DNA from: a virus
Virus record (IMG/VR): IMGVR_UViG_3300040801_001081
Location: 1 to 38,660 of that record
Strand: one strand, 5' to 3'
Length of the DNA: 38,660 nt
Below are positions 7,103 through 8,638 of this stretch, piece after piece (the stretch's first letter is position 1; every line of letters begins with the position of its first letter). The translations under genes were made by a program, and so were the position numbers. The notes beneath the pieces are model-generated. The model did not search any database and had not been told where the DNA came from. It saw nothing but the letters and a program-made list of their open reading frames with translations.

Positions 7103-7443
7103 AAGAGATCGACCCCGATGAAGTATTCCACCGCATCAACAATGCAGGGCAAGCTTGGGTTGAGGCTAACGCCAAAGCTCGACTGTACGAAGACACCGAG
7201 AAGTCAGAACTCAGCCAGATAACAATGGACAAGATCGCTGCCGGGGCGAGCAGCATGGCTCAGGCTGATGCGATGGCTCGGTCTGATAGTAAATATCGCG
7301 ACTTTGTGAAGGAAAAAGTCAGACTCAAACAAGAGGCTGACGAGGCGCGGGTCACCTACGATGCCGCAAAAATCTGGTGGGAAGCCCAGCGCACTGTTGC
7401 CGCTACCCTTCGCCAGGAAGGTAACATGATCAATGGGAGATAA
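7099..7443 (+). CDS. Hypothetical helical protein (114 aa)
   Basis: I choose the ATG at 7099-7101, which overlaps the stop of the previous gene as ATGA; the frame extends three codons upstream. The product (MKEIDPDEVFHRINNAG...) is rich in Ala, Lys and Glu and predicted helical throughout, with a charged KEKVRLKQEADEARVTYDAAK stretch, possibly a coiled coil. No family recognised. Its TAA (7441-7443) overlaps the first ATG of the WPTP-repeat frame. Confidence 0.65.
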   Translation: MKEIDPDEVFHRINNAGQAWVEANAKARLYEDTEKSELSQITMDKIAAGASSMAQADAMARSDSKYRDFVKEKVRLKQEADEARVTYDAAKIWWEAQRTVAATLRQEGNMINGR

Positions 7444-8638
7444 TGATGGCTTGGCTTTACATTCCATTGAGTTGTGCGCCGGCACAGGAATGCTCGGAGA
7501 AGGCGTCAGGGCTGCATTCGAATTTCTTGGATGGCAGCACCGAACTGTCTGTTACATCGAAAGGGAAGCTTTTGCCGCAGCGCAGCTTGTTGCGCTCATG
7601 GAAGCGCAATGCCTGGATGCAGCGCCTATCTGGTCTGACCTTACTACCTTCGACGGCGAAGCATGGCGGGGAAAAGTGGATTGCGTCATTGCTGGATTCC
7701 CCTGTCAGGATTTGTCAGTTGCTGGGCGGCGATCAGGGCTTGACGGAAAGCGGTCCGGGCTTTTCTTCAACGTCTGCCAGATCGCAGATGATTGCGGAGC
7801 GCGATTCCTCATTTTGGAGAACGTCCGTGGCATCACTTCTGCCACCGCCTCCGTTGTTTGCGAAGCCGAAGAATGGGAAGAACGGGCAGTTTCCAGAGTC
7901 GTGGGAGAACTGGCCGACCGCGGGTGGAATGCGGAATGGATGCATGTATCAGCGTCAGACGTGGGCGCAAGTCATGGCCGGGAGAGGTGGTTCTGTTTTG
8001 CGTGGAGAGAATTGGCAGACGCCGGGAGCAGACAGTTTCCGCAGCAGGGGCGGCGAGAGAAAGTCGGAAATGGGCCTAGACCAGCAAGTAAGGGCGCACT
8101 GGCCCACACCGAAAACCCTGACAGGCGGGGCGAACAGCAAGCGGAGTCAGAGGAATGCCGGGGGAGCGGATTTGCAAGAGAGCGTGGAGCAATGGCCAAC
8201 GCCAACGGGTCAGGACAACAATCAGGTGAAGGGGCAAGCAGCCGCAGCGGACAACCCACAGCGCGGGACAACGCTGGGCGGGGCGATCAGGCATTGGCCC
8301 ACACCGGCAGCGCACGAAGAACGTCTAGGATTTCAGGACCGATCAAGGGGAAAGAAAGGCTCACAGGAATCACTGACAACCGTTGTGATGCTGGCCGATC
8401 AAGACCCCTCTTCGCCCCTGGGCCAGCAGACGAGCGATGGCCCGAATCATCAAGCGATGTCCCTACCTCGCCCCGGCGATTGAATCCGGCGTTTGCGGGA
8501 TGGTTGATGGGCTGGCCCTGGTGGTGGACGAATCCAAAGGTGACCAACTCCGTTGCATCGGAAATGGAGTTGTTCCGCTCTCTGCTGGCGCAGCACTTGT
8601 CGAGCTTATTCGAAGAGCAAGAAAACAGGAGTAAATAG
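7433..8638 (+). CDS. C5-cytosine DNA methyltransferase, frameshifted near its C-terminus
   Basis: N-terminal catalytic motifs of C5 methyltransferases are clear: SAM site SIELCAGTGMLGEG (11-24), catalytic GFPCQDLS (Cys 91), ENVRG (129-133), GRERWF (182-187). Residues about 195-310 are the variable target-recognition region with repeated LAHTEN, MANAN, LAHTGS units. The last conserved motif (CIGNGVVPLSAGAAL) is not in this frame but in the next, at 8437-8634. Inserting one base at about 8441-8444 joins them into a 400-aa enzyme (7433-8634). As written, the frame ends at 8638 with a foreign C-terminus (NPAFAGWLMGWPWWW) belonging to the overlapping WPTP protein. Such enzymes protect phage DNA from host restriction. 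Start ATG 7433; its ribosome site (AGGAAGG) is 11 bases away. Confidence 0.85.
   Translation: MGDNDGLALHSIELCAGTGMLGEGVRAAFEFLGWQHRTVCYIEREAFAAAQLVALMEAQCLDAAPIWSDLTTFDGEAWRGKVDCVIAGFPCQDLSVAGRRSGLDGKRSGLFFNVCQIADDCGARFLILENVRGITSATASVVCEAEEWEERAVSRVVGELADRGWNAEWMHVSASDVGASHGRERWFCFAWRELADAGSRQFPQQGRREKVGNGPRPASKGALAHTENPDRRGEQQAESEECRGSGFARERGAMANANGSGQQSGEGASSRSGQPTARDNAGRGDQALAHTGSARRTSRISGPIKGKERLTGITDNRCDAGRSRPLFAPGPADERWPESSSDVPTSPRRLNPAFAGWLMGWPWWWTNPKVTNSVASEMELFRSLLAQHLSSLFEEQENRSK
7446..8483 (+). CDS. WPTP-repeat phage protein, overlapping the methyltransferase in the +1 frame
   Basis: This second frame lies wholly within the methyltransferase gene and carries a recognisable family pattern: start MAWLYIPLSCAP, then SWKRNAWMQRLSG, SWENWPTAGGMRNG, and repeated WPTP units (HWPTPKTL, QWPTPTGQD, HWPTPAAHEE). 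I recall such proteins annotated as separate hypothetical genes in other phages. GGGAG at 7435-7439 is six bases from the ATG at 7446, a better ribosome site than that of the methyltransferase. The expected C-terminus (LNPAFAGWLMGWP) lies in the neighbouring frame to 8638; restoring one base at 8441-8444 gives 397 aa. Function unknown. Whether the protein is made, or the pattern echoes the methyltransferase code, cannot be told from sequence alone. Confidence 0.6.
   Translation: MAWLYIPLSCAPAQECSEKASGLHSNFLDGSTELSVTSKGKLLPQRSLLRSWKRNAWMQRLSGLTLLPSTAKHGGEKWIASLLDSPVRICQLLGGDQGLTESGPGFSSTSARSQMIAERDSSFWRTSVASLLPPPPLFAKPKNGKNGQFPESWENWPTAGGMRNGCMYQRQTWAQVMAGRGGSVLRGENWQTPGADSFRSRGGERKSEMGLDQQVRAHWPTPKTLTGGANSKRSQRNAGGADLQESVEQWPTPTGQDNNQVKGQAAAADNPQRGTTLGGAIRHWPTPAAHEERLGFQDRSRGKKGSQESLTTVVMLADQDPSSPLGQQTSDGPNHQAMSLPRPGD

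Follow-up and report, generated by a model that had tools for sequence, protein, structure and literature searches.

Two overlapping reading frames on the same strand, at positions 7433-8638 of the window (the whole 38,660-nucleotide stretch of the IMG/VR virus record IMGVR_UViG_3300040801_001081), probably form a dual-frame cassette encoding a split phage C5 cytosine methyltransferase, and the window copy is broken at 8438-8445. Frame f (alpha) reads as a C5 cytosine methyltransferase, and frame f+1 (beta) as a WPTP-repeat protein. In the proposed organization, alpha would contribute the large domain with motifs I-VIII and X, and beta the WPTP modules and motif IX, which lie in one chain with the rest in single-chain relatives. 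The two frames would start near each other and end together, and their products, translated from one message, would assemble into one methyltransferase. The initial annotation had described one missing base that breaks two overlapping genes, without connecting the two. Both genes appear to be parts of one split enzyme, a C5 methyltransferase, and the single missing base is accordingly predicted to deprive alpha of motif X and beta of motif IX. The coordinates of the cassette are given in Table 1.

Table 1. Features of the two-frame cassette in the window (frame numbers are the coordinate modulo 3)
Feature	Position	Strand	Basis
Alpha front: predicted large domain with motifs I-VIII (frame 2), followed by a weakly conserved middle	7433..8440	+	PF00145, motifs, profile match
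Beta front and three WPTP modules (frame 0, alpha +1); the ORF as written stops at 8483	7443..8440	+	phrog_1008, E 8e-10
Lesion, both frames short by one base	8437..8445	+	Comparison with relatives
Beta tail, now in frame 2 and fused to the alpha front; motif IX-like LNPAFAGWLMGWP at 8480-8518	8444..8638	+	Motif IX homology of single-chain enzymes
Alpha tail containing motif X (GNGVVP, 8560-8577), displaced to frame 1	8446..8634	+	phrog_29583, E 2.6e-17
Chimeric ORF of 401 aa as written: alpha front and beta tail	7433..8638	+	ORF reading

Methyltransferase motifs IV (PCQ), VI (ENV), and VIII were located in frame 2 of the window, at 7691, 7814, and 7961, respectively, and CIGNGVVPLSAGAAL with the motif X sequence GNGVVP (from 8560) was located in frame 1, which bears out the earlier observation that the methyltransferase tail is one base out of the frame of its front. 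The C-terminus of the WPTP protein is displaced by the same amount, as also proposed, with WPTP motifs at 8100, 8193, and 8295 in frame 0 and the tail LNPAFAGWLMGWP in frame 2 at 8480. PF00145 matched the alpha frame with an E-value of 1.3e-26, and the motifs used as criteria for this family (IV, VI, VIII, IX, and X) are all present at the locus but in no single intact chain. The start codons are ATG 7433 for alpha and ATG 7443 and 7446 for beta. As written, alpha would keep motifs I-VIII and run into the beta tail, gaining motif IX and losing motif X, whereas beta would end without motif IX. Motif X would be stranded in the third frame, where the alpha tail falls inside an ORF of 65 aa from ATG 8437. 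With both parts truncated in this way, the window cassette is expected to be inactive.

The conservation of alpha runs to TGG 8438-8440 (the W of DERW) and restarts at CGA 8443-8445 (the R of RIIKRCP), one base short, and the frame of beta changes across the same bases (8438-8445) and by the same step. The lesion is located past the last WPTP module and before motif IX. LNPAF and GNGVVP are 80 nt apart in the window, as they are in 6/6 relatives of the set L001-L011 in which both motifs were found (L001, L002, L004, L005, L006, and L008), indicating that the frame change lies upstream of motif IX. This frame comparison confirms that one indel accounts for both breaks. The proposed restored lengths of 400 and 397 aa also fit, the second being 397 or 398 aa by choice of start. 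No other lesion was found in either window gene, and apart from the break each frame stays open as far as its expected end; with just one lesion in the cassette, the break would be recent or an error. The sequence AGCGATGnCCC occurs at 8433-8443 and again at 8453-8463, forming a near-direct repeat (period, 20 bases) across the lesion.

Relatives of the cassette were collected by keeping the best 80 of 288, of 600, of 597, and of 598 confirmed loci, and all 62 loci of one further search. In the first 11 relatives (two Acidovorax phages and nine IMG/VR contigs), motifs IV-VIII and GNGVVP were in f, and WPTP and LNPAF were in f+1, wherever found. Profiles of both frames placed the WPTP frame at alpha +1 in 113/113 clusters (154 gene copies), of which 96 are neither shifted nor broken (contig ends make some of them partial), 13 are shifted, 3 have alpha interrupted by a stop, and 1 has beta interrupted by a stop. 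After the profiles were broadened and further loci added, 253/334 non-redundant clusters had motifs I-VIII and X in f and motif IX in f+1, the remainder being 19 single-chain clusters with X and IX both in f, 10 clusters in which f+1 holds both motifs, 18 shifted clusters, and 34 incomplete ones; owing to the best-80 selection these cluster shares are not population rates, and the set drawn from 288 was ranked by similarity to whole beta and is thereby biased against broken copies. Beta runs in frame +1 across nearly the whole length of alpha in the relatives, and both ORFs are open from front to end in 244 of the 253 clusters. Both genes are thus intact in most relatives, and none was seen with the break of the window.

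Three related clusters have alpha cut by a stop mid-gene and beta open for ~510 aa (L064 2937-4527, L067 466-2022, and L068 2937-4527). Motifs IX and X were found together in +1 in L175, L177, L179-L182, L184, L186, L188, and L189, retrieved with a mycobacteriophage query. Two public annotations correspond to the beta frame, namely Alfacinha3 gp46, annotated as 'cytosine-specific methyltransferase' (L001 1498-2664), and XAI96804.1 of Synechococcus phage Ssp-JY39, annotated as 'hypothetical' (L158 1406-2521). The catalytic alpha frame is missing from the listed features of both records, and annotation of such loci may retain just one frame, as with the beta frame of Alfacinha3 gp46. No near-identical contig was found for the window locus, and an exact search with a 31-base pattern matched nothing. 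The 27 loci of portal relatives, many of them short, yielded one weak methyltransferase match (L425), the search of genome contigs one relative, and the plasmid search one weak DNA match. One more match, L427, came from 399 genomes belonging to the same order as L013's genome; it had no match on the strand read, was left unclassified, and enters no count.

The coding status of beta was assessed against synonymous shuffles of alpha. In 245 genes, f+1 contained 0.47 stops per gene in the front and 0.31 in the rest, compared to 2.62 and 1.66 after shuffling, whereas f+2 contained 5.24 and 7.72, compared to 5.90 and 7.11; the depletion of stops is therefore specific to f+1. In 134 genes that were not part of the training set, the profile score of f+1 was 133 bits for the front and 82 bits for the rest, against 91 and 3 bits in the shuffles, and it exceeded all 20 shuffles in 130/134 genes (front) and 133/134 genes (rest). 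The reverse shuffle test gave 134 and 133 of 134 genes, with related genes taken as independent in this test as in the stop and shuffle counts above. Since shuffles still reach 91 of the 133 bits, much of the beta front, but not all of it, is a shadow of alpha. As judged by these tests, beta is under selection. Twin starts, with both frames initiated at most 5 nt apart, were present in 160/245 genes, compared to 11, 0, and 6 of the 245 genes at three control points inside the gene. Twin starts of the AUGUG form are able to initiate both frames in Escherichia coli (PMC9841429).

The beta profile aligned with single-chain actinophage methyltransferases over the PTP modules (middle) and motif IX (hhalign probability 98.7, E 2.6e-16), the matching elements of beta being its WPTP modules and LNPAFxxWLMGWP. 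The alpha profile aligned with the front of the same enzymes (probability 100, E 4e-47). With beta and alpha matching the middle plus motif IX and the front of one enzyme, the pair reads as a split methyltransferase. In gp72 of Mycobacterium phage Tweety, for example, a single chain contains the large domain and an LLPTP module together with motif IX (RLAAAFPEWMMGWPAGWV) and motif X (GNGVVPQQAA), and frame +1 of this gene contains many stops. A structure model of the single-chain L165 superimposed on M.HhaI over residues 2 to 384 (Z 22.8, 237 residues, rmsd 3.7). The beta model was poor (mean pLDDT 58) and had no structural match in the PDB, and the PTP stretch of the single-chain model was of low confidence, so that a target-recognition fold is not shown by these models. 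Against PDB sequences, the beta profile found no DNA methyltransferase, only weak unrelated rows. The WPTP frame might instead encode an independent protein that is no methyltransferase subunit, as its length, nearly that of alpha, and the selection signal of its own in the front would allow, and the overlap with alpha is uninformative on assembly. However, single-chain methyltransferases have the beta modules and motif IX in line, and of 370 loci with a WPTP motif-IX match, only 5 were listed without an alpha front, 4 of which start no more than 3 bases from the locus end while the fifth is the window's own copy (L012), a script omission. An independent protein is thus unlikely.

The preferred reading, a split methyltransferase, has partial counterparts among known systems. 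In 1995, Lee reportedly found the small polypeptide of M.EcoHK31I to be encoded within the gene for the large one but in a different frame, and beta is similarly coded in another frame within alpha. In M.EcoHK31I, the larger polypeptide contains motifs I-VIII and X and the smaller one only motif IX (PMC3404938), and the same split is found in the 253 clusters above. In contrast, the predicted target recognition domain of M.EcoHK31I is placed in the larger subunit (PMC3404938), whereas here the modules preceding motif IX are in beta. Beta also differs in having about the length of alpha and a start beside that of alpha, and the window copy is broken: its motif IX shares a frame with motifs I-VIII and its motif X is separate, so the M.EcoHK31I-type layout is missing from the window as written because of the lesion. 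M.AquI is likewise a split enzyme, and the 10 clusters with motifs IX and X in +1 have its motif layout (PMC3404938), but motif X stays with alpha in the window family. The single-chain actinophage enzymes such as Tweety gp72 share the large domain, the PTP modules, and motifs IX and X with the pair but have everything in one frame. Poly-G phase-variable methyltransferase genes such as modH are, as far as known, single-frame N6-adenine genes. Their tract length sets the frame, as may happen in the relatives here and unlike in the window, and the difference is that here one tract lies within two overlapping genes. Phage methylases with the ShiLan domain also have a second gene in another frame, an out-of-frame HNH, although this gene is a mobile homing endonuclease insertion and does not belong to the methyltransferase itself (PMC11855218). 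In the literature searched, with subscription papers mostly outside it, we found no report of a two-frame split-methyltransferase arrangement in phages. If both frames are indeed parts of one enzyme, such a long same-strand overlap would be an unusual and testable case of dual coding.

The initial annotation had offered a sequencing error, an inactivating mutation, or a recoding site as explanations of the break. Its single indel and its expectation of intact relatives were upheld, and the recoding site was not. A programmed -1 frameshift would join the parts and rescue both proteins at once, and a shift within 8389-8634, where the third frame is open, would join alpha. However, as the initial annotation had also noted for the classical type, no slippery heptamer (XXXYYYZ) is present in 8380-8475, the point of the shift is not conserved, and every shifted relative is broken elsewhere, with breaks scattered and in both directions. 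Recoding in the window was therefore rejected, and we regard a programmed frameshift as extremely improbable. Phase variation at the window's own site was also rejected, as the break contains no simple repeat. Within the window gene, no homopolymer run of at least 6 was found, the longest being G5 at 8160, and the break itself has only GG and CCC. The lesion would thus be a sporadic deletion or an assembly error, and we consider error and true mutation about equally probable.

A sequencing or assembly error in the IMG/VR contig, with both genes intact in the real phage, has close to an even chance of being the cause. The cassette has no second lesion, and the site is no homopolymer. Among the clusters of the dual and shifted classes that have no G or C run of at least 7, 4/241 are shifted, a rate compatible with rare errors. 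A comparison of 20 other window ORFs with PHROGs revealed no comparable break, the 7/20 that had no match being of little information. The window also encodes P22-like podovirus structural proteins at 13108-34462 (terminase, portal, scaffold, major head, head closure Hc3, and tail spike). The portal, scaffold, major head, and head-closure proteins match most of their profiles, suggesting that the contig is not generally noisy. With the rest of the contig looking sound, however, the error rate must be low, and other phages are broken in the same gene, including L019, L135, and L272, which we take from their identifiers to be isolate genomes. A true and recent inactivating mutation in the phage or a prophage is credible at somewhat below even. 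Loss recurs in relatives (18/334 clusters shifted and, in 3/113, alpha cut by a stop with beta open), and the near-direct repeat across the site might have aided a slip, but no second copy of the locus was found. The shifted form might also be functional as a three-piece enzyme made of the alpha front with motif IX, the beta modules, and the 65 aa motif X peptide. Every piece is still in an open frame, and detached parts of C5 methyltransferases can complement each other (PMC3404938). This form is very unlikely, as translation of motif X would have to begin separately at 8437, where no clear ribosome site was seen by eye, and the arrangement at this point is repeated in no relative.

Double breaks like that of the window recur in relatives, mostly at G or C homopolymers that are absent from the window, a pattern that the initial annotation had missed. 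One shift moves both genes in 18/334 clusters, the window included, and in both directions. Runs of G or C of at least 7 were found in 14/18 shifted clusters, at or near the break, compared to 16/253 intact clusters (Fisher p 4e-12), which is an association of tract with shift rather than an enrichment of tracts as such. GC-rich DNA not infrequently contains long G runs. These proportions suggest homopolymer switching, although simple slippage or sequencing error in homopolymers would fit the association as well. Among the 48 tree rows of the clade nearest the window, G7-G10 was present at the shift point in 11/12 shifted genes, compared to runs in 4/36 intact genes (Fisher p 6.5e-7). The runs of this clade usually follow the last WPTP module and precede motif IX, with an earlier position in L019. 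Shifted rows make up 12/48 of this clade versus 0/57 elsewhere in the tree, figures that bear the sampling bias against broken copies. One cluster, L055, is shifted near its front; it is counted in the 13 of 113, was left out of the tree for its short length, and does not figure in the 18.

Between identical flanks, a tract of G8 is in frame (L114 3857) and a tract of G9 is shifted (L125 3968). Within the same module, the tracts of L114, L099, and L119 are in frame, those of L125 and L122 are at +1, those of L135 and L133 at -1, and that of L130 at +2; the run of L130 was taken from the first tract scan, as its region was cut short in the second. We tentatively propose that one G tract before motif IX co-switches both split-methyltransferase genes in a phage group. 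A slip of this tract by one base would make motifs IX and X leave their proper chains together, giving two reversible 'swapped' states in addition to the active one, and the window would be a member without a tract, broken differently. If the tract is a switch, one slip would toggle two phage methyltransferase subunits, with a possible bearing on how the marks that phages place on their own DNA against host restriction are varied. The window lesion is minor alone, and the cassette and the possible homopolymer switch in its relatives are of more interest.

Later searches added shifted clusters outside that tree, namely L327, L272, L316, L307, L275, and L230. The shifted clusters without a run of at least 7 are the window, L327, L272, and L275, the last having a G6 away from the break. 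Long runs at or near the break were observed in the other-clade shifted genes L316 (G15 at 2933), L230 (C12 at 2769), and L307 (C7 at 3173).
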